NCBI GenBank assembly: GCA_021795215.1
Contig: JAJYPS010000017.1
Span: 1-34,954, forward strand
DNA from: Actinomycetes bacterium
GTDB taxonomy: Bacteria > Actinomycetota > Acidimicrobiia > Acidimicrobiales > JAKAOS01
Reading direction: 5' to 3'
DNA length: 34,954 nt
Both the position numbers and the translations under genes were made by a program. The first letter of the stretch is position 1. Each line of letters begins with the position of its first letter. Under the pieces are notes generated by a model that saw only the letters and a program-made list of their open reading frames with translations, was not told where the DNA came from and did no database searches. Of this stretch, positions 7,961-20,420 are shown in pieces.

Positions 7961-9382
7961 GTGGCACCTGCGCTTTCCCTGCGATCCCGGGCGGCCGCCA
8001 GGGCGGGGGGCTGGGCCGCCGAGGCGTCGCGGCGGCTGGGAGGTGGCGAGGGGCTGGTCATCGGCGGCCGTGTCAGCCTGGCTCTCGATCCGTCTCTGCT
8101 CGCCGGGCTGTCCCGTGACAGGGCCGTAGCGCTCGTCAGCGGGACCAACGGCAAGACCACCACCACCAGGCTGCTCGCCTCGGCGCTCATGGAGTTGGGC
8201 CCGGTCGCCCACAACTCCGGCGGTGCCAACCTGCCATCGGGCCTCGTTCCCGCGCTGGCCGGTTCGCCTGCGGGCTCACCCGCCGCTCTCGAAGTGGACG
8301 AAGGGTGGCTGGGCGCCGTTGCCGATGCGGTCTCGCCGGGATGCGTGGTCCTGCTCAACCTCTCACGGGACCAGCTGGACCGGGTTAGCGAGGTGCGGAA
8401 CGTGGCTTCCCGGTGGAGATCGGTCGTCGAGCGCCTGGGCCATGCCGTGGTGGTGGCCAATGCGGACGACCCGATGGTCGTGTGGGCTTCACGTGACGCT
8501 GCCCACGTTCGTTGGGTCGCTGGTGGCCAGTCCTGGCGGGAGGACGCGGCGGGCTGCCCCTCCTGCTCGGGAAGGATCGACTACGACAGTGAGGGCTGGC
8601 GCTGCGGTACCGGCTGCGGGCTCGAGCGACCGGCTCCTGCGGCGTGGGTGTCCGGAAGCCAGCTCGTGGTTCCGGGCAAGGGGAACCACTCCATCGAACT
8701 GGCCCTTCCCGGCCGGTTCAACCTGGCCAACGCGGCGATGGCGGCTGTCGCCGCCGCCGAGATGGGTGTGCCCCTGGAGCGGGCGACGGCAGCGATGTCC
8801 CAGGTGACCGGCGTGGACGGCCGCTACGAGGTGACGGCGGCGGGTGGTATCTCGGCTCGGCTGCTTCTCGCCAAGAACCCGGCCGGTTGGGCGGAGCTGT
8901 TCGACGTGCTCACGGAGGATGTCGCTCCCGCGGTCTTCGCCATCAACGCCAGGGTGGCCGACGGGAGAGACCCGTCGTGGCTCTGGGACGTGCCGTTCGA
9001 GAGGCTGGCCGGCCGCCTGGTCGTCGCGTCGGGCGAGCGCTGGAGGGACCTGGCTGTGAGGCTGCGGTACGCGGGTGTGGACCACGTCTGTGCCCCGGAC
9101 CCCCTTGCGTCTCTGGAGCTGGCCGCCGAGCACTACGGTACGGGCACGGGCGCAGCCGTACAAGTGGACCGCTGTGCTGATCCGGGCGTCCGTCGAGACT
9201 TCCGATCCGCGTCGGATCGAGAGGGCGAAGGACGGGCGGAGCGGGCCGTCGCCGACGACCGGGGCAGACGCATCGTGGACGTGGTCGCCAACTACACCGC
9301 CTTCCAGCGCTACCGGGCAGCCCTACGCCCCCTGCGGGACGCTCCCCGGCTTGCGGATCAGGCGCCGGTGTCCCTCAAGTGA
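7961..9382 (+). CDS. murT: Lipid II isoglutaminyl synthase subunit MurT (Mur ligase fold, DUF1727 C-terminus)
   Basis: VALVSGTNGKTTTTRLLASAL, Cys4 ribbon CPSCSGRIDYDSEGWRCGTGC, GRFNLANAAMA, LAKNPAGWAELFDVL; directly followed by gatD. Confidence 0.93.
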   Translation: MAPALSLRSRAAARAGGWAAEASRRLGGGEGLVIGGRVSLALDPSLLAGLSRDRAVALVSGTNGKTTTTRLLASALMELGPVAHNSGGANLPSGLVPALAGSPAGSPAALEVDEGWLGAVADAVSPGCVVLLNLSRDQLDRVSEVRNVASRWRSVVERLGHAVVVANADDPMVVWASRDAAHVRWVAGGQSWREDAAGCPSCSGRIDYDSEGWRCGTGCGLERPAPAAWVSGSQLVVPGKGNHSIELALPGRFNLANAAMAAVAAAEMGVPLERATAAMSQVTGVDGRYEVTAAGGISARLLLAKNPAGWAELFDVLTEDVAPAVFAINARVADGRDPSWLWDVPFERLAGRLVVASGERWRDLAVRLRYAGVDHVCAPDPLASLELAAEHYGTGTGAAVQVDRCADPGVRRDFRSASDREGEGRAERAVADDRGRRIVDVVANYTAFQRYRAALRPLRDAPRLADQAPVSLK

Positions 9383-10167
9383 GCCGGGAATCCGCCGTCC
9401 GGATCGTGGTTGTCCACCCCGAGCTTCTCGGCACCTACGGCGACTCGGGGAACGGGCGTGTGCTTGCGACCCGGCTCCGTTGGCGTCGCATACCTTCCGA
9501 GCTGATCATGGCCCCAGCCGATCGTCCACTGCCACAGTCGGGCGACATCTACTGCCTCGGCGGTGGCGAGGACGGCCCGCAGGTGTCGTCCGCGGCGGCG
9601 CTGAACGTCGACGGCTCCCTCGTCAAGGCGGTCGACCGTGGTGCTGCCGTGCTGGCCGTATGTGCCGGGTTCCAGATAATCGGCAAGTCGTTCCCCGGAC
9701 CGGATGGCCGGGAGGTGCCCGGTGTAGGGCTGGTGGACGCGGTGACGCGGAGGGGACGGGGGCCGCGGGCGGTGGGCGAAGTGGTCAGCCGGCCGGTTCC
9801 GGGCCTGAGGCTCGTCCCGTTGAGCGGTTACGAGAACCACGCCGGAGTGACCCGTCTGGGCCCTGAGGCCTCACCTCTGGGAATGGTGCACAGGGGAGTA
9901 GGAAACGGGGGCGGCGACGGGACGGAAGGGGCGTGGCAGGACAAGGTTCTGTGCACCTATCTCCACGGTCCGGTCCTGGCTCGGAATGCCGCTCTGGCGG
10001 ACCACCTGCTGTCCTCCGTGGTCGGTCCTCTGGGCCTGCTGGACGACGCCGAGATGGAGGAGCTGCGCCGGGAGCGCATTCGCAACGGCATAAGTGGGCC
10101 CGCAACCGGCAGGGCCTGGGCGAGACACGTGTGGAGGAGACCCTCGGAGGTGATGACCAGGTTTTGA
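9379..10167 (+). CDS. gatD: Lipid II isoglutaminyl synthase glutamine amidotransferase subunit GatD
   Basis: IVVVHPELLGTYGDSGNGRVLATRLRWR, GDIYCLGGGEDGPQ, VLAVCAGFQIIG (nucleophilic Cys), CTYLHGPVLARN; GTGA overlap with murT. Confidence 0.93.
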   Translation: MSRESAVRIVVVHPELLGTYGDSGNGRVLATRLRWRRIPSELIMAPADRPLPQSGDIYCLGGGEDGPQVSSAAALNVDGSLVKAVDRGAAVLAVCAGFQIIGKSFPGPDGREVPGVGLVDAVTRRGRGPRAVGEVVSRPVPGLRLVPLSGYENHAGVTRLGPEASPLGMVHRGVGNGGGDGTEGAWQDKVLCTYLHGPVLARNAALADHLLSSVVGPLGLLDDAEMEELRRERIRNGISGPATGRAWARHVWRRPSEVMTRF

Positions 10168-10212: not shown

Positions 10213-11133
10213 TCAGACGCCGGGCCAGCGTTTCGAGTCGGACCGGGACCGGCCGTCGTTCGCAGGAAGGGCCCAGGAACGGCGCCAACCGGACCCTTCG
10301 GGACCTTGCAGAGGTGGAGTGCTGTCGGCCGAGGCGCGCAGCCTGGCCGACCACCAGTCGGTGGCACTCTCGTCGGCCAGCTGGGCCACCGCCTGCTCGA
10401 CTCGCACGGCGAACCGTCTGGCATCCTCTCCTCCTCGGGCGCGAACCGGGGCACCGAAGGTGACCACAGTCGGCGCCCGCCGCACCCGCACAGTGCCCTT
10501 GGGCAGTATTGCCCTGGTGCCGCTTATGTGGATCGGCACGACCGGCACTCCTGACTGGATCCACAGATGGGCGGCGCCCGCCCGGAACGGCTGCGCCCAT
10601 CCGTCGGGCGACCGCCCTCCCTCGGGGAAGATGATCAGGTTCCATCCCTCCGCAAGCCGTTCGGCCGCCATCTCCGACGACTGGCGATTGACTCGCTGGC
10701 GCTCCATCGGGATGGCGCCCAGGAGGCCGGCCGAGACGACCGCCTTCCACCCTCTGTCGAAGAAGTAGTCCGCCCCAGCGGCGACGATGCTGGCGTGGCG
10801 GAACCGCGGCGGCAGGACGGACAGCACCAACAGCGTGTCGAGGTGGCTGGAGTGGTTGGCTACGAAGATGGCGGGGGCCTCCAGCTCGCCCAGCCGGTCG
10901 AGCCCTCTCACTTCGGGCGAAGCCACCAGCGACGACACGGGCCTGCCCACCGCCTCCAAGAGGGCGGCCCTCACGGCCCGGGCGACGGGCGTGCGAGCCC
11001 ATGTCGTGTCGTATGCCGCTCCCAGCCCGCCTCTTGCGGCTGGCCGGGGCAGGCTCGTTGGCCACGTCGGGGCGGTCCAGGGGAACCCGGCAGGCACCTT
11101 GGACAGTGCGGCTCGGACCAGTCTCGATCTCAT
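10213..11133 (-). CDS. 1-acyl-sn-glycerol-3-phosphate acyltransferase-like (PlsC/LPLAT)
   Basis: NHSSHLDTLL (HX4D), NLIIFPEGGRSPDG, PVVPIHISGT. Confidence 0.87.
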   Translation of the reverse strand: MRSRLVRAALSKVPAGFPWTAPTWPTSLPRPAARGGLGAAYDTTWARTPVARAVRAALLEAVGRPVSSLVASPEVRGLDRLGELEAPAIFVANHSSHLDTLLVLSVLPPRFRHASIVAAGADYFFDRGWKAVVSAGLLGAIPMERQRVNRQSSEMAAERLAEGWNLIIFPEGGRSPDGWAQPFRAGAAHLWIQSGVPVVPIHISGTRAILPKGTVRVRRAPTVVTFGAPVRARGGEDARRFAVRVEQAVAQLADESATDWWSARLRASADSTPPLQGPEGSGWRRSWALPANDGRSRSDSKRWPGV

Positions 11134-11136
11134 CCC

Positions 11137-12747
11137 CTAGCGGACGTCGGCCATCAGCAGCGGGGGCGTGTGGAGGTGGGTCAGGGTCGGGTCCCGCCCC
11201 ACCACGTCCGAGGCGATCTCCAGCGCGTCCTGCATCGTCGACGCCGAGCGGAAACCGAGCCGACGGACCGCCCTGCGTTCCCCCCCCACCACGATCACCG
11301 CTCCCAGGTGATCCAAGGCGTGGGCAGTCCAGTACCACATGTAGAACGGGTGCACTCCGTGGTAGGCGTTCCCGGTCCGGTAGAGGTGTATGTACCACGG
11401 GTCGGTGGCGAAGGACTCCTCGAACTTGGCCTCCATCTCGGCCGGATCCGTGGTCTCGGTCAGAACCCTCTCGAAGAAGTCGATGTAGCTCGGGTGGTGA
11501 ACCGGATCGAACGCCCACGGCGTCGGGTGGGACATGATCACCACGCCGCCCTGTCGCACCAGCGGCTTGCCGATGTAGCTGTTGAAGAAGTAGCCCAGGC
11601 CCAGGCAGGCCACCAGGACGGGGTTCATGATCGAGTTCACGTTGTAAGGCCCGAGGTAGGTGAGCCCCATCGTGAGGATGTCCGCCTGGCCCTCCACCAC
11701 CACACGCTGTTGGTTCAGCACCACGTCGATCGTGCGGTCGTGCACCGCCTCCACCTCGCCCGCCTGCACGCTCGTCAGCCGGTAGGGGGAGCGGGTCCTC
11801 TGCATCATCGTCTGGGCCAGGCGGGGGGGCAGCCGGTCCAACGCCGTCTTCGCCCCGAGGAACGTCGCCCTGTCCCGTGCTTTCCACTCCCACTCCCGCC
11901 GGTTCAGGAACCCGTAGGCGTCGGGGAAGCTGCGGCCGTCCAGCGTCGTCTCGATCTGGAAGATCTTCACACCGGCGTCCCGGATCAGACGTCCCATCCT
12001 CCAGTTGGAAGAGTGCAGCTCGGAGCTGGCAGGGTCCATGAAGGAGCGGGAATGGACCATGGTGTGGGTGTTGTGGTGATGGCGCAGACTGCGATAGCTG
12101 GCCAGCCCCGTCGCAACGCTCTTGTGGCCGCCGTCCATCGACACCAGGTTGATGTTGACGTACACCAACAGGTCCGACGTGGCGGCCCGCTTGTTCAGCT
12201 CCACGTCCTCGCCCCGGTCGGTCTGGCCGAGATGGATCAAGTTGTCGTGGTCCTCGGCGTCGTGCTGGGTGAGCCGTCCGGTGGGTGCGAACGCGTCGTA
12301 GATACGGTCTCCCAGGACGTGGCGCAGCTCGGCCTCGGTCAGCCTCCGGTGCAGCGCCAGAGCTGCCACCAGCACGACGTCGTCCACCCCGGCTCGGGCC
12401 GCCTCGTCCAGCACCGCCTCGATCACCTGCTGGCGCACGTCGGGCGCCTGCATGGGAGGCAGCGGCAGGGAGACGTCGTCGAACGCGATGGTCAGCCGCA
12501 TCCCGGCCCGCAGCAGCGCCGACAGGGGCTTGGAGTCGCCCAGCGGGTTCTCGAGCGCCTCGCGGATCGCTGCGGTGGGGTCAGAGAGGGGCACGGCCGG
12601 CTCTGGCGGGTAGACCACCCTGGAACCCACCGGCAGCCTCTCCATGCGGAAACCGTCGCCGTGCCAGAACATGGTCGGAGGAGTGGAACGGTCCACCTCC
12701 AGAACAAGGCCAGGTCTTCCAACCGTCCCCGATCTTCCTGCAGTCAT
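11137..12747 (-). CDS. LarA-like protein (nickel-dependent lactate racemase family, DUF2088)
   Basis: LTIAFDDVSLPLPPM, VVLVAALALHRRLTEAELRHVLG, SMDGGHKSVATGLASYRSLRHHH; ATG 12747 with upstream GGAGG. Confidence 0.75.
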   Translation of the reverse strand: MTAGRSGTVGRPGLVLEVDRSTPPTMFWHGDGFRMERLPVGSRVVYPPEPAVPLSDPTAAIREALENPLGDSKPLSALLRAGMRLTIAFDDVSLPLPPMQAPDVRQQVIEAVLDEAARAGVDDVVLVAALALHRRLTEAELRHVLGDRIYDAFAPTGRLTQHDAEDHDNLIHLGQTDRGEDVELNKRAATSDLLVYVNINLVSMDGGHKSVATGLASYRSLRHHHNTHTMVHSRSFMDPASSELHSSNWRMGRLIRDAGVKIFQIETTLDGRSFPDAYGFLNRREWEWKARDRATFLGAKTALDRLPPRLAQTMMQRTRSPYRLTSVQAGEVEAVHDRTIDVVLNQQRVVVEGQADILTMGLTYLGPYNVNSIMNPVLVACLGLGYFFNSYIGKPLVRQGGVVIMSHPTPWAFDPVHHPSYIDFFERVLTETTDPAEMEAKFEESFATDPWYIHLYRTGNAYHGVHPFYMWYWTAHALDHLGAVIVVGGERRAVRRLGFRSASTMQDALEIASDVVGRDPTLTHLHTPPLLMADVR

Positions 12748-12749
12748 GG

Positions 12750-14042
12750 TCAGGCCTCCCTTGCTCGGCTCTGTGCCGAGCGGCTCTGGCGTCCCGATGG
12801 CGGCGTCCGCCTCGCACCGGGCTCGAAAACGATCTTCACTGCACCCCGCCGGCCTGCCGACGAGGCATGCGCCAGTGCCTCCTCGTGGCGGTCCAGGGGA
12901 TAGCTGGCAGACACCAGCCGGCCCAGTCCGGCGGCGGCCACCAGCTCGAATGCCATGTCGAAGCTCGACCGGCGGCCATCGCCGGAGCCGCCATCGCCCG
13001 AGCCGACCCCGCCGGGGCGGCCATCGCCCGAGCGGGCGCCACGGGTTCGGTCCTCGAGGCCGTACGCGTAGGCGCCGGCTAGCTTCACTTCCCGCTGCCA
13101 AAGGGGCGTCAAGTCGACCCTTGCAGGTGATGGCATCCCAGCAAGGACGATGGTGCCCCGGGGCCGCACCACCGCCAGGCTCTCATGAAGTGACTGCGCA
13201 CTACCGACGCAGTCGTACACCACGTCGGCACCGCCGGTCAATCGACCCCCGACCGTCATCGTGCGGGTCACGCGACGGACCGCCGCCACGGTGCCCTCCG
13301 AACCGACCGTCACGTCGGCACCCAGATGCACCGCCAGCTTCTGCTGGTGTGTGTGGCGGGCCGACACGACCAGCGACGCAGGCCGCACGAAGCGGTGAAG
13401 GGCCGCCGTCACGGCGAGGCCGACCGTTCCGGCGCCGACGACGGCCACCGTCGCGGCCTCCGCCTCCGGTGCAGCAAGAGCCGCATGGACCCCGCACGCG
13501 ACCGGTTCCGCCAGCACCGCCTCGGTGTCGCTCAGCTCGTCCGGCACCCGGTGGAGCTGGCTTTCGTGCGCCACGAGTGCACCGGCCCAACCGCCGCCGG
13601 TGTCGCAGCAGAAGCCCGTCTGCAGCCCCGGCGACAGCGCTCCCAGGGAGATGCTCTCGCAGTTGCCGACCCGTCCCGAGGCACACGCTGCGCAGGGCGG
13701 GTCGATCCCCCTGCTGGCACAGCTCAGCACCGCCTCCAGCACCACTCTGTCCGAAGGATCGGAGTCCACGTGTCCCACCACTTCGTGCCCGGGCACGAAT
13801 GGGAAGCTGACGATCGGCTCGAACCAGCGAGAGCTGCGGCCCTCCACGGTCGCCAGGTCCGAACCGCAGATTCCGGACAGGATCGTACGCACCAGGTGCC
13901 AGCCCGGCCCCGGTGGCCGCGGAGCGTCCACGTCGGCCAAGCGGACCGGTGAAACCGCCCCGCCCGGACCCATGCCGAGCGTCGATCTCAGCCGAGCCGC
14001 GGCGAACCTCGGCAGCGACCGCTCCACTACGAGCGCCTTCAT
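12750..14042 (-). CDS. Zinc-dependent alcohol dehydrogenase (MDR family)
   Basis: ILSGICGSDLATVEG, FPFVPGHEVVGHV, PPCAACASGRVGNCE, VAVVGAGTVGLAVTAAL, GTIVLAGMP. Confidence 0.88.
   Translation of the reverse strand: MKALVVERSLPRFAAARLRSTLGMGPGGAVSPVRLADVDAPRPPGPGWHLVRTILSGICGSDLATVEGRSSRWFEPIVSFPFVPGHEVVGHVDSDPSDRVVLEAVLSCASRGIDPPCAACASGRVGNCESISLGALSPGLQTGFCCDTGGGWAGALVAHESQLHRVPDELSDTEAVLAEPVACGVHAALAAPEAEAATVAVVGAGTVGLAVTAALHRFVRPASLVVSARHTHQQKLAVHLGADVTVGSEGTVAAVRRVTRTMTVGGRLTGGADVVYDCVGSAQSLHESLAVVRPRGTIVLAGMPSPARVDLTPLWQREVKLAGAYAYGLEDRTRGARSGDGRPGGVGSGDGGSGDGRRSSFDMAFELVAAAGLGRLVSASYPLDRHEEALAHASSAGRRGAVKIVFEPGARRTPPSGRQSRSAQSRAREA
12971..13033. repeat. Imperfect in-gene repeat (unit approx. 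GCGGCCATCGCCCGAGC, 3 copies)
   Basis: ggcggccatcgccggagc / cgccatcgcccgagc / gcggccatcgcccgagc inside the ADH gene; encodes a Gly/Ser/Asp-rich insert. Confidence 0.8.
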
Positions 14043-16420
14043 CGGCCCCTTCCGGCCATCGGCCTCGCCCCGCCCCGGATCCGAGGGCCCATCGGCAGCA
14101 GCGTCGGTCGAGCGCCCGGAGCCCTGTTCCAGTGCTCGAGGTGCCAGCCCCGCTTCCTCGCCACCGCGGCCAGCTTCGTTTCCGGGTTGACCGCCACGGG
14201 GTAACCGACCGCCTCCAGCATCGGCAAGTCCGACGTGGAGTCTGCGTAGGCGACTGCCTGTCCCAGGTCCAGGCCGTGTCGTGCCGCGTACTCCGCGATG
14301 ACCAGGGCCCTCGCCTCTCCCGTCGGTGGTACGGCCACCATCTCTCCCGTCAGCCTGCCGTTCCTCTCACCCAGCTTCGCACACACCACCTCGTCGAACA
14401 GCGGCCGGATCGGCTCTATGACCAGATCCAACGCGCCGGTGATGAGCAGCGTCCTGTGCCCCAGTCGACGGTGCTCCCGGACCCGGGCCAGCCCGGACGG
14501 GAACGCCTTGGTCATCAGCAGCGTGTTGAACAGCTCCCAGGCATCCTCCCGCAAGCGGGAGACCGGCGCCCCTTCGTAACGGCGGTAGAAGAAGCGCAGG
14601 AAGTCGCCCCTGTCCCTGCGGTCCAGGGCCAGCAGCGACGGTGCCTCCACCATCAGCCGGGCAGCCAGCTTCGCACGCGCCAGGTCCGGAAGGTGCCGGG
14701 TGGCAAGCCAGGCGTACGAATCGACCACGTTCGACGAGATCAGGGTGTTCTCCAGGTCGAACGCCGCCAGGTGCCTCTCCGGCGCCAGCACTGCGCTGCG
14801 GCCCCTCTCGCTCCGCTGCGACCTTCCCTTCCGGGACGGGGCTGTGCGCACCCGGGCGTGGGTCACGATGGACGGAAGGTGCACTTCTCTCACGTAACGA
14901 GACCAGTCGATCACCGAAGGGTCGAAGCAGAACAGCCGGCGATCGTCCTCGCTCAGGGTCTCCCACAACGACGTCAGGTGCTGCACCTGGAAGACCGTCT
15001 CGCACTCGGCGTAGGACCCGTAGAGCTCGACGTAGGACAGAGCCCGTTCGGCCTGCCCCCGACGCTCCTCCAGCTTGCCTGCAACCTCGGCGCGCCTGCC
15101 CCGTACCGGCAGAGCGGACAGCGCCCGCTCGGTGCCCTTCAGCACCTTGGTCGCCCTGGTCAGCTGTCGCTGCACCCGGCCCCGCCCGGGGAAGGACCAC
15201 TCCGGCACGACGATCGGCTGGCCGTGGGAGTCGTAGATGGGGTGCTCGGTGAACCAGCCCTGAACCAGGTCCACCAGCTGCCCGTACCGCAGGGGGTTGC
15301 GGGACCCCGACGCCACCTGGTAGAAGTCCGGCCCGTCCGCCGGCGGACCGGCGGCGGCCACCGCCAGCACCGCTGCGACCACCATGTCGACGGGAATCAC
15401 GTCGATGATCCCCTCCGGCAGTCCGGGGAACTCCCGAAGCAGGCCGCGGGCGTAGGAGATGATGACCGGTTCCGCCATCCGGAACCCTCTGATCCAGCCG
15501 GGCTTCGGCTCGGCCAGCGCCGACTCGATGATCGACGGTCGGACGATGCTGAGCGGCACCTCGCCCCGCTCCGCCACCAGCGCCCGCTCCGCCATCGCCT
15601 TCGTGAAGGCGTACGCGTCCGGCCAGCCGAGCATCCTCGCCCGCGCACGGCCGGCCTCCACCAGTTCGTTGCGGACCCATTCCCCTCTCTGGCGCTCGGC
15701 TCGGGCGGCCAGCAGGGGCGTCCCCGCCGCGCCCAGCTCCGAGGCCGCCTCCCGACGGAACCGGTCCAGCATCTTCGGTCGGCGGCTCTCGGCCTCCGTG
15801 TCCCCCCGAAGGCGATGTGCCGACGCCACCTCCGCTCGCCAGTCGGCCTCGCTGGCGAACGGCGTGTCCTCGAGGCTCGCTTCCGGCGCAGTGCCCCGGC
15901 GGGACCCCGCCACGTACGCCGTCGACACCGCAACCAGGTGCCCCGGGCTGCTGCCCCCGGCCATCGCCCTCGCTACCCGGAGCGGACCGAGCAGGTTCAC
16001 CTCCACGGCGGCGTCCAGTGGAGCGTCGAAGCTCACCGTGGCTGCCGAGTGCACCACCACGTCGGCCGAGGCCAACGCCTCCCTGGCCTGCTGGTCGAGC
16101 CCCACCCCATCCACCGTCACGTCCCCTGCCACAGGATGCACCCGGCGTGCCACCTCGTCGTCGAACCGGTCCCCGAGCTGATCCCGCAGTCGGTCGAAGC
16201 AGTCATTGCGCACGACGTCCCGAGCGAAGCGCGCCTCCGCTCCTCCTCTGCGGCCCGGTCTCACCACCGGTATCACCTCGCATCCCGGCACAGACCGCAG
16301 CAGCCGCTCCACCAGAGCCGTTCCCACGAAGCCCGTCGCGCCGGTGACCGCTATCCGCTTTCCCGACAGCGATTCGGGGATCGTCGGGGCTTCGGAGATC
16401 GCAGGGACCTCGGGCATCAT
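14039..16420 (-). CDS. Fatty acyl-CoA reductase-like extended SDR fused to a C-terminal HAD-IB phosphatase domain
   Basis: KRIAVTGATGFVGTALVERLL, VVHSAATVSFDAPLDAAVEVNLLG, YAFTKAMAER (YxxxK); C-terminal LAAFDLENTLISSNVV, RTLLITGALDLV, VAYADSTSDLPMLE; start ATGATG at 16420. Confidence 0.85.
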   Translation of the reverse strand: MMPEVPAISEAPTIPESLSGKRIAVTGATGFVGTALVERLLRSVPGCEVIPVVRPGRRGGAEARFARDVVRNDCFDRLRDQLGDRFDDEVARRVHPVAGDVTVDGVGLDQQAREALASADVVVHSAATVSFDAPLDAAVEVNLLGPLRVARAMAGGSSPGHLVAVSTAYVAGSRRGTAPEASLEDTPFASEADWRAEVASAHRLRGDTEAESRRPKMLDRFRREAASELGAAGTPLLAARAERQRGEWVRNELVEAGRARARMLGWPDAYAFTKAMAERALVAERGEVPLSIVRPSIIESALAEPKPGWIRGFRMAEPVIISYARGLLREFPGLPEGIIDVIPVDMVVAAVLAVAAAGPPADGPDFYQVASGSRNPLRYGQLVDLVQGWFTEHPIYDSHGQPIVVPEWSFPGRGRVQRQLTRATKVLKGTERALSALPVRGRRAEVAGKLEERRGQAERALSYVELYGSYAECETVFQVQHLTSLWETLSEDDRRLFCFDPSVIDWSRYVREVHLPSIVTHARVRTAPSRKGRSQRSERGRSAVLAPERHLAAFDLENTLISSNVVDSYAWLATRHLPDLARAKLAARLMVEAPSLLALDRRDRGDFLRFFYRRYEGAPVSRLREDAWELFNTLLMTKAFPSGLARVREHRRLGHRTLLITGALDLVIEPIRPLFDEVVCAKLGERNGRLTGEMVAVPPTGEARALVIAEYAARHGLDLGQAVAYADSTSDLPMLEAVGYPVAVNPETKLAAVARKRGWHLEHWNRAPGARPTLLPMGPRIRGGARPMAGRGR

Positions 16421-17300: not shown

Positions 17301-20300
17301 TCATCTCCTCCCGGGAGGAGTGGTGGGCAGGCAGGCGGACGTCCGAGTGGCGAGGAGCGCCTCGACCTCCCGGTGGGGCCAGGGACCGCCGAACAGCCGG
17401 CCCTGGCCCAGTTCCACCCCCAGGGACGCGAGCGACTCCCGCTGCATCTCCGTCTCGACCCCTACGGCGCAGACCGGGCACTCGAGCGCAGTTCCGAGGG
17501 CGGCAGCCAGACGAAGCACCATCGTCTGGCTCTGACCTTCGGGCACCACCTGCCGGACCAGCCTTCGGTCGATCTTGAGCAGTGAGAACGGGTGCTCCAC
17601 CAGCATCGACAGGGAGGTACCCCCTGCGCCGAGACGGTCCAGGCACGCTTCGACGCCGATGGCGCCGAGCGCTCCGAGCGCGTCCCACGCGATCGCTCCC
17701 GCCTGCGCCAGGGTGTCCTCCGCTACGTCGACCAGCAGCGACTCCGCGGGCACCTCCGCCGACTCGAGGAGGGCTCCGATGCGGTCGGCGATGTCCGATA
17801 CCAGCAGCAGGCGCTGGGAGATGTTGACCGAGATGCGGAGCTGCTCGGGTAAGCGGAGCTGCTCCGACCGGCCCCTCCTGCGGCAGCGCTGGAGTAGTTC
17901 CACGGACCGCTCCAGCATCCACCAGTCGATCCTGCGGATGAGCGAGCTCTGCTCGGCGAGAGCGGTGAACTGCGACGCCTCCACCAGCCCTCTGCTCGGG
18001 CTGTTCCAGCGCACGAGCGCCTCCCACAGCCTGGGCAGGCCGCCTTCGATCGGCACGACCGGCTGCAGCCACAGCTCCAGCTGCCCGGTGGTGATCGCCG
18101 CTGCCAGCTCGTCCTCCTGGCTCAGGCGATCCCGCTCGGCGGTCTCCAGGTTCGCCTGGTACAGCGCCCGGCGGTCCCGCCCCGCCTCCTTGGCACGGTA
18201 CATGGCTATGTCGGCCTGGCGGAGGATGTCGGCCGGCCCGGACCGCTCCTCGGACACCGCCACCCCGATGCTGCCCGTAATCGTCACGCTGTGCCCGCAC
18301 ACCTCGTAGGGAAGCCGCAACAGCGCCACGATCCGGTCCGCCGCCTGGATGGCGTCCTCCGGAGCCGAGATACCGTCGAGCAGCACAGTGAACTCGTCAC
18401 CGGCCAGACGGCTCACGGTGTCTTCCGGGCGCAGGCATGACACCAGCCTCCTTGCGGTCTCGACCAGCAGCGCGTCGCCAACGTGGTGCCCCAGTTGGTC
18501 GTTCACGCTCTTGAAGTGGTCCAGGTCGACGAACAGCACGGCCACCCTGCCGAGGCGCCGGTCGATCTTCGCCAGCGCATGGTCCAGCCGGTCGCCGAAC
18601 AGCGCCCTGTTGGCCAGGCCGGTCAGGGGATCGTGCAGGGCACGGTGCGCCATCTCGTCGAACCGCCGGACCTCCGCCTCCCGCAGCTCGGCATGGGCGA
18701 GCACCAGCGATCCCTCCAGGGCCAGCTGGCCCAGCACCTCCCGTTCCACCGGCTCCCACTTGCGCCCCGCCTCCGCCTGGCCGCAGATCACCACAGCCCT
18801 AAGCTGCTCCCGGACCCTCAACCCGATCGCCAGCCACGCGCCCATGCCGGCCAGCACCGGGTCGTCTTGATCGTCGACCGCCGCCGGGGCTCCGCTCGGA
18901 GCCCTGTCCGGAGCCCTGCTCTGCGCCCCGCTCGGAGCCCTGTCGCCGGTTCGACACCCTTGACGCGCTCCAGAGGCGCCTGGTGTGCTCCACCGGCCCG
19001 CACCGCCGGGCTCGCCAGTGGAGCCGAGCACCGTTGCCGGGGAAGGGGAGTTGGACAGACGGCGCCAGAGCGCAAGATCGGTGGCCGGCTGGCCCAGCAG
19101 CGCCTTGTGCGCCTCTGCCATCCGGTCCAGCGCCGTTCCGCTCGCCGAGATCGTCTCCACCCGCTCCCCAGGGGAGATCAGGATGCCCATCCCTAATTCG
19201 GCCTGGACCGCCTGGCGCATGACATTGCCGACCACCCGAACAGCGTCCGCCGGTGACGAGAGGTTCGGACCCGCCTGCAGCAGCTCCGTCACGGCGTCGG
19301 TCAGGCGAGACCGCACCTTTGCCCGGCCCCTTGCCCGCCAGTCGGCCACGATCCGACCTGTCTGCGAAGCGGTGGCCATCAACAGGCGAAGCTCCGTCCG
19401 CGACAGCGCCGTCCTGCGTCCCAGGTCGACCACCATGGCCCCGAGCGGTCCCGACGACGCCACCACGGGCACGGCCGTCAAGGCACCGGACCTGAGCGCC
19501 GCGGTCCATTCGGGCCCTACCAGGTCCGGGTCGGAGCCGTGCGACATCACGGGCACGCCCGAGTGGAACGCCGCTTCGGCAAGCGGCATCGGCACGCCGG
19601 CGGCGAACACGCCGCTCCACGACTCACGTGCTGCGAAGGGGCGGCACAGCTCTGCCGTCACGGGTGCCAGCGACACTCCGTCAGTCAGCATGACCATCAC
19701 TCCGCGGGCCGATATCCGGTGGGCGACCAGCCCCGTCACCGCCCGCAACTGCTCCTCCAGGCTGCCGGAGTGAAGGTCCAGCTCGGACAGGTCCAGGAGC
19801 AGCTCGCCCAGCGCCCGCCTGTTCTCGGCTGTTTCCGCTGCCCGCGCCAGGGCGGCACTGGAGGCGATCAGGGGCAGGAGAGGCCCCAGCTGCTCAACGT
19901 CCGCCACTCCGGCCGGCTCCACCGTGATGAACCCGACCGGCTGGTGGGAGCTGTAGAGCGACGCCGCGAAGACCGACTCGACCGACAGCTCCTCCACCAG
20001 CGACGCCGGGATGCCCGGATGCGCCGCCGCGTCCGGCACGACCACCATCGAGCCTTCCGTCGCCAGGAGGTCCCTGACCGCTCCGAACGCAGCCAGCGGG
20101 TACCTGCCATACATGCCGACCGGCTCCGACGCTCCCGAGGCGGACGCCACCACGCACGGCGACACCGACGTCTCGTCGTCGTCCAGCAGCCACACCCCGA
20201 TCCTCCGCGCCGACAACGTGTCTCTTACTGCCACGCACAGATGTGCCAACCGGGAACGTGGAGGCGGTGCTCCCGACCCGGGGCTCCCGTCCGAGGCGTG

Positions 20301-20420
20301 TACGTGCGTGTCAGAACGGCCAGCCACGGCAGCTTTCCGAAAGCGAGCGAGCCCCGTCCAAGTCCTGCAGTCGCCGCCCTTCTCGAGCCCGGGCGCCGAT
20401 CGGGCGCCGTTCGCTGCCAA
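17301..20420 (-). CDS. GAF - GGDEF - EAL domain protein with degenerate catalytic motifs
   Basis: GAF-like segments; DPLTGLANRALFGDRLDHAL, VDLDHFKSVNDQLGHHVGDALL, SRLAGDEFTVLLDG; EALVRWNSPSRGLV, LDRLGAGGTSLSML, LLKIDRRLV, CAVGVET; N-terminal start uncertain. Confidence 0.88.
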   Translation of the reverse strand: MAANGARSAPGLEKGGDCRTWTGLARFRKAAVAGRSDTHVHASDGSPGSGAPPPRSRLAHLCVAVRDTLSARRIGVWLLDDDETSVSPCVVASASGASEPVGMYGRYPLAAFGAVRDLLATEGSMVVVPDAAAHPGIPASLVEELSVESVFAASLYSSHQPVGFITVEPAGVADVEQLGPLLPLIASSAALARAAETAENRRALGELLLDLSELDLHSGSLEEQLRAVTGLVAHRISARGVMVMLTDGVSLAPVTAELCRPFAARESWSGVFAAGVPMPLAEAAFHSGVPVMSHGSDPDLVGPEWTAALRSGALTAVPVVASSGPLGAMVVDLGRRTALSRTELRLLMATASQTGRIVADWRARGRAKVRSRLTDAVTELLQAGPNLSSPADAVRVVGNVMRQAVQAELGMGILISPGERVETISASGTALDRMAEAHKALLGQPATDLALWRRLSNSPSPATVLGSTGEPGGAGRWSTPGASGARQGCRTGDRAPSGAQSRAPDRAPSGAPAAVDDQDDPVLAGMGAWLAIGLRVREQLRAVVICGQAEAGRKWEPVEREVLGQLALEGSLVLAHAELREAEVRRFDEMAHRALHDPLTGLANRALFGDRLDHALAKIDRRLGRVAVLFVDLDHFKSVNDQLGHHVGDALLVETARRLVSCLRPEDTVSRLAGDEFTVLLDGISAPEDAIQAADRIVALLRLPYEVCGHSVTITGSIGVAVSEERSGPADILRQADIAMYRAKEAGRDRRALYQANLETAERDRLSQEDELAAAITTGQLELWLQPVVPIEGGLPRLWEALVRWNSPSRGLVEASQFTALAEQSSLIRRIDWWMLERSVELLQRCRRRGRSEQLRLPEQLRISVNISQRLLLVSDIADRIGALLESAEVPAESLLVDVAEDTLAQAGAIAWDALGALGAIGVEACLDRLGAGGTSLSMLVEHPFSLLKIDRRLVRQVVPEGQSQTMVLRLAAALGTALECPVCAVGVETEMQRESLASLGVELGQGRLFGGPWPHREVEALLATRTSACLPTTPPGRR

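Follow-up and report, generated by a model that had tools for sequence, protein, structure and literature searches.

The classical hydroxy-acid racemases among the nickel-pincer-nucleotide (NPN) enzymes of the LarA superfamily (LarA, Mar, GntE) are marked by two catalytic histidines, His108 and His174, and by Arg75, an anchor for the carboxylate or a cofactor phosphate. Groups 14 and 15 are described in PMC12611868 as being without His174. According to Desguin et al. 2020 (PMC7583248), loss of such residues may leave LarA homologues unable to invert a centre, and they could catalyse another hydride-mediated reaction; the same source reports that the group-14 enzyme of Frankia (LarAH14) was inactive on seven hydroxy-acid reactions. 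LarA_Sp, which has a single histidine, does not racemise lactate (PMC12611868). Groups 14-16 make up LarAH14/15/16, an orphan family; the main-text passages of PMC7583248 that deal with it describe no lipid cassette.

The established routes to ether glycerolipids use AGPS (alkyl-DHAP synthase) or Ger/PlsA (glycerol ester reductase). In myxobacteria, the elb operon (ElbB, ElbD, ElbE; PMC9131029) makes alkyl ether lipids with parts that, compared by description, resemble those of the locus presented here: a fatty acyl reductase (FAR)-like element, an acyltransferase, a HAD domain and an NAD-dehydrogenase. LarA is not named among the elb components, and ElbD adds acyl-CoA synthetase and carrier domains, whereas the present cassette encodes a protein that is FAR-HAD only and a separate PlsC.

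The locus places a LarAH14/15/16 protein in a conserved lipid cassette. With a probability of about 0.5, we read this cassette as a module for a glycerophospholipid with a fatty-alcohol-derived chain, likeliest a mixed 1-O-alkyl/2-acyl (ether/ester) lipid, in which the LarA-like enzyme would shuttle hydride with its nickel cofactor. The cassette sets an orphan group of nickel enzymes in a concrete biological context and supplies ether-lipid synthesis in aerobic Actinobacteria with a candidate gene set that would operate by a route not yet described. If the reading is correct, bacteria would possess an additional ether-lipid route besides AGPS, Ger and Elb, and the LarA superfamily a non-isomerase reaction. 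A LarA step that shuttles hydride instead of isomerising would widen the known NPN repertoire.

The four genes and their products

The window, meaning the whole stretch of 34,954 nucleotides that was analysed, corresponds to contig C151 in an assembly of 2.6 Mb and 152 contigs with 92.7% completeness. As the original prediction held, it contains a tightly packed operon of four genes, all on the minus strand, listed here in operon order with the domains of the first product:

14039..16420, minus strand: FAR-HAD fusion, 793 aa, a fatty acyl reductase with FAR_C followed by a HAD-IB phosphatase-like domain (Pfam, 7eoz match)
15371..16348, minus strand: NAD(P)-binding catalytic domain of the FAR part, residues 25-350, with YxxxK at 270-274 (Pfam)
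14213..14767, minus strand: HAD-IB domain, residues 552-736, with motif I (DxExT) immediately before the domain (Pfam)
12750..14042, minus strand: MDR zinc-type alcohol dehydrogenase (ADH), 430 aa (ADH_N, ADH_zinc_N)
11137..12747, minus strand: LarA-like nickel-pincer-nucleotide enzyme of the LarAH14/15/16 family, 536 aa (NF052592)
10213..11133, minus strand: PlsC-type acyltransferase, 306 aa (PF01553, 7.1e-23)

The predicted spacing is also found: the stop codon of FAR-HAD and the start codon of ADH share an ATGA, 2 nt separate ADH from the LarA-like gene and 3 nt separate the latter from PlsC. So are the predicted families, each domain scoring above its curated cut-off (NAD_binding_4, FAR_C (Sterile), HAD, ADH_N/ADH_zinc_N, Lar_N and Acyltransferase). 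A promoter scan found nothing, and the terminator-like matches fall within genes. On the plus strand, a MurT/GatD-like pair (window 7961-10167) converges with the operon and terminates near its end; upstream of the operon the minus strand encodes a GAF-GGDEF-EAL protein (window 17301-20420).

The FAR-HAD fusion matches NAD_binding_4 (1.6e-56), HAD (1.6e-26) and Sterile (36 bits), and among solved structures it is most closely related to 7eoz, a fatty acyl-CoA reductase (1.4e-67). Tyr270 and Lys274 of the reductase are invariant among 69 aligned sequences. In the HAD domain D10, D182 and D186 (numbered in the HAD fragment) are essentially invariant; the first Asp of motif I is present in 74 of 74 sequences and the second acid is Glu in 63 and Asp in 11, making the motif mostly DxExT instead of DxDxT. 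The catalytic-zinc residues C59, H86 and E87 of the ADH are essentially invariant across its relatives, as are the NHxSH and PEGxR motifs that PlsC has kept.

The LarA-like protein

Membership of LarAH14/15/16 follows from the NF052592 score of the whole protein, which at 870 bits exceeds the cut-off of 740; NCBIfam names this model 'hydroxyacid isomerase'. A PHROGs search with the protein gave no match. Its AlphaFold2 model (pLDDT 87.8, pTM 0.90) is closest in fold to 9q3k (TM 0.84 by target), with 9q3j also among the best matches. LarA or malate racemase accounts for 18 of the 19 fold matches at E<=0.001; the other, 4nar, is titled only Q9WYS3. LarA_Sp and LarA_Bw (9q2u/9q3k, 9q3j) are the best matches by both sequence and fold; they likewise have about 500 residues and an Asn for the second histidine. 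However, structure alignment gives only some 20-24% identity to them, their gene context is one of sugar metabolism, unlike the cassette, and the Arg75 position is Lys in both but Leu here.

Key residues were assigned by alignment with LarA, Mar2 and 9q2u, and their conservation was counted over about 80 sequences from the phylum:

12466..12468, minus strand: Leu94, in place of Arg75, the carboxylate or cofactor phosphate anchor (register from the Mar2 alignment)
12349..12351, minus strand: His133, equivalent of LarA His108 and the single catalytic histidine left (81/81)
12148..12150, minus strand: Asn200, in place of the catalytic His174 (Asn in 81/81; a one-residue gap lies beside it in the alignment)
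12121..12123, minus strand: Lys209, equivalent of Lys184, the cofactor tether (81/81)
12073..12075, minus strand: His225, equivalent of His200 and, from spacing and alignment, the probable nickel ligand (80/80)

At the Arg75 position 74 of the 81 sequences have Leu, four Ile, two Cys and one Val; Arg never occurs there. The two-histidine arrangement of LarA, Mar and GntE is thus reduced to His133, and the arginine that these racemases share is missing. The C-terminal half of the protein (the Lys298 region) did not align by sequence with LarA or Mar2.

Conservation, variants and cofactor genes

The class was searched through 247 genomes, 56 of which have a strong and three a weak LarA match. 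FAR-HAD occurs in all 56 genomes with a strong match and in none of the 191 others (Fisher p ~6e-57, a statistic that ignores kinship). The order FAR-HAD, ADH, LarA, PlsC on one strand is found at every fetched Acidimicrobiales locus with sufficient contig (about 55 loci), except that five Acidimicrobiales loci (L064, L066, L073, L078, L082) have no ADH. One carrier, L143, is from the cultured species Ferrithrix thermotolerans. The genome_contigs collection, with at least 80 loci, agrees except at contig ends, at loci that have lost ADH and at one locus with two ADH matches. The searches for the cassette covered Actinomycetota, and the genome_contigs scan alone extended beyond this phylum. Several other actinobacterial families keep the order as well. 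Among 398 genomes of the phylum, LarAH14/15/16 is above cut-off in 87, FAR-HAD is present in 94 and both are present in 85; several of the genomes with only one of the two hold LarA fragments or are incomplete. In one genome (G308, locus L212) both are present yet unlinked.

Order and strand kept over dozens of diverged genomes exclude chance. The conserved neighbourhood on which the original prediction had staked itself therefore exists, in Acidimicrobiales and beyond, and the co-occurrence of LarA and FAR-HAD together with the kept gene order makes it nearly certain that the cassette is, as had been supposed, a single functional module. A fifth conserved gene was sought and rejected, as the genes farther out are either generic or particular to one lineage (Ddl, aconitase, regulators, MFS).

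The cassette varies between families. Five Rubrobacteraceae loci (L209-L211, L213, L221) have PlsY immediately upstream of FAR-HAD and no adjacent PlsC. At L209, L210 and L222 of the same family, ADH and LarA are separated by MOSC, protoglobin or GAF genes. The rhodopsin of one Rubrobacteraceae genome, G285, matches 6KFQ (RxR), the Rubrobacter xylanophilus rhodopsin (PMC6959264), without a difference over 239 aa, and the genome is therefore assigned to that species; it carries FAR-HAD, ADH and LarA with PlsY. In family f63 LarB (L205) or LarE (L206, L207) adjoins the cassette. As called, these LarB and LarE proteins (L205:11810-13318, L206:7503-8879, L207:7344-8768) have about 180-280 additional N-terminal residues.

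Absence of larB, larC and larE from the genome had been named as an observation that would count against the original prediction; all three are present above cut-off, on other contigs, and the genome encodes one Lar_N protein only. Within the class, larC occurs in 50 of the 56 LarA genomes versus 4 of the 191 others, and LarC was not found in six LarA-bearing genomes (G075, G087, G177, G221, G223, G246). The accessory genes beside a lone Lar_N protein, the co-occurrence of larC, the larB or larE genes next to the cassette in f63 and the invariant Lys and nickel His together make it very probable that the LarA-like enzyme is NPN-dependent.

The lipid product and competing readings

The lipid context proposed originally is upheld by FAR, ADH, HAD and PlsC or PlsY, a combination suggestive of a glycerophospholipid in which a chain derives from an alcohol. 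PlsC in most loci and PlsY in the Rubrobacter version argue that the scaffold is glycerol-phosphate and not a free hydroxy acid. The product is probably a glycerolipid, and the chances that it is an ether lipid are about even.

About 46% of the core lipids of Rubrobacterales are reported to be ether-linked (PMC10821996). A protein with PF06050 (HGD-D, Ger/PlsA) was not found in G000, R. xylanophilus or G257. AGPS is not evident among the three FAD-oxidase_C proteins of R. xylanophilus, as read from family and best match; for one of these the best matches among solved structures are D-lactate dehydrogenase and glycolate oxidase, and the sequence was the sole basis for judging the other two. The sole FAD-oxidase_C protein of G000 has glycolate oxidase as its best match. 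Neither an AGPS nor a Ger/PlsA route was thus evident in R. xylanophilus, and an Elb-type route is conceivable there; the leading candidate for making the ether lipids reported for its order is the cassette, which combines a fatty acyl reductase with a glycerol-phosphate acyltransferase (PlsC or PlsY). This link comes from one group with a differing cassette, in which PlsY is present, PlsC is not adjacent and some loci have inserts before LarA. A 2023 paper on Rubrobacterales lipids reportedly proposes an ether-lipid operon.

In the pathway that we envisage, FAR would reduce an acyl-thioester to the fatty alcohol, with ADH finishing or recycling the aldehyde, while PlsY or a housekeeping equivalent would supply 1-acyl-glycerol-3-phosphate. 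The NPN-loaded LarA-like enzyme would abstract a hydride from the C2-OH of the glycerol unit, and the transient ketone would permit exchange of the C1 substituent for the fatty alcohol before the hydride is given back to the same face. PlsC would then acylate sn-2, and HAD may strip phosphate from an intermediate or by-product. A single acid/base histidine could be sufficient, because the hydride would return to the face that it left. To our knowledge, no NPN enzyme has been described that acts on the backbone of glycerol. The specific exchange chemistry assigned to LarA is a tentative hypothesis, and it is similarly doubtful that aerobic Actinobacteria owe the alkyl ether bond of their phospholipids to an NPN enzyme performing such a hidden-redox (hydrogen-borrowing) exchange on the glycerol backbone.

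The end product could instead be fatty alcohols, or a storage or surface lipid derived from an alcohol (a wax ester, 1,2-diol or acylated diol), in which case LarA would act on an intermediate that is a diol or carries a 2-hydroxyacyl group. A reductase with FAR_C whose best solved match is a fatty acyl-CoA reductase would suit such a product, as would the adjacent ADH, and PlsC-type enzymes are able to acylate hydroxyls besides that of lysophosphatidate. However, the Rubrobacter cassette contains PlsY, a glycerol-3-phosphate enzyme, a conserved wax synthase was not found beside the cassette in the neighbourhoods examined, and the carboxylate-anchoring Arg has been lost from the LarA-like protein. 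We regard this product as possible but not probable.

The superfamily, the NPN genes and the NCBIfam name would accord with an ordinary racemase or epimerase of hydroxy acids that fixes the stereochemistry of a hydroxy-acid precursor. A standard hydroxy-acid racemase is nevertheless unlikely, as this is a single-His enzyme with an invariant Asn for His174 and, in most sequences, Leu for Arg75. The reported inactivity of the Frankia LarAH14 and the failure of LarA_Sp to racemise lactate weigh in the same direction, leaving this explanation quite improbable. The original prediction thus holds for the functional unit, its lipid context, its neighbourhood and larB/C/E, and is not supported where it let LarA set alpha-hydroxy-acid stereochemistry.

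Isomerisation or inversion of a glycerol(-phosphate) unit by the LarA-like enzyme, to produce a lipid whose backbone has an unusual stereochemistry and for which the ester/ether question is secondary, is very improbable: glycerol-phosphate acyltransferases do lie in the cassette, and the ligand of one nearest solved relative has been speculatively modelled as a phosphorylated open-chain sugar (PMC12611868), but inversion normally requires two acid/base groups where one His remains, and PlsY and PlsC normally act on sn-glycerol-3-phosphate lipids.

Apart from the cassette proteins, a second LarA group (L223, L224, L226, L227) is about 42-44% identical, scores under the NF052592 cut-off and has no FAR-HAD nearby; the LarA paralogues of family f69, at about 44% identity, likewise lack a FAR-HAD neighbour. 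At L223 a CoA-transferase III gene adjoins the LarA gene of this group and the gene of an AMP-binding enzyme lies close.
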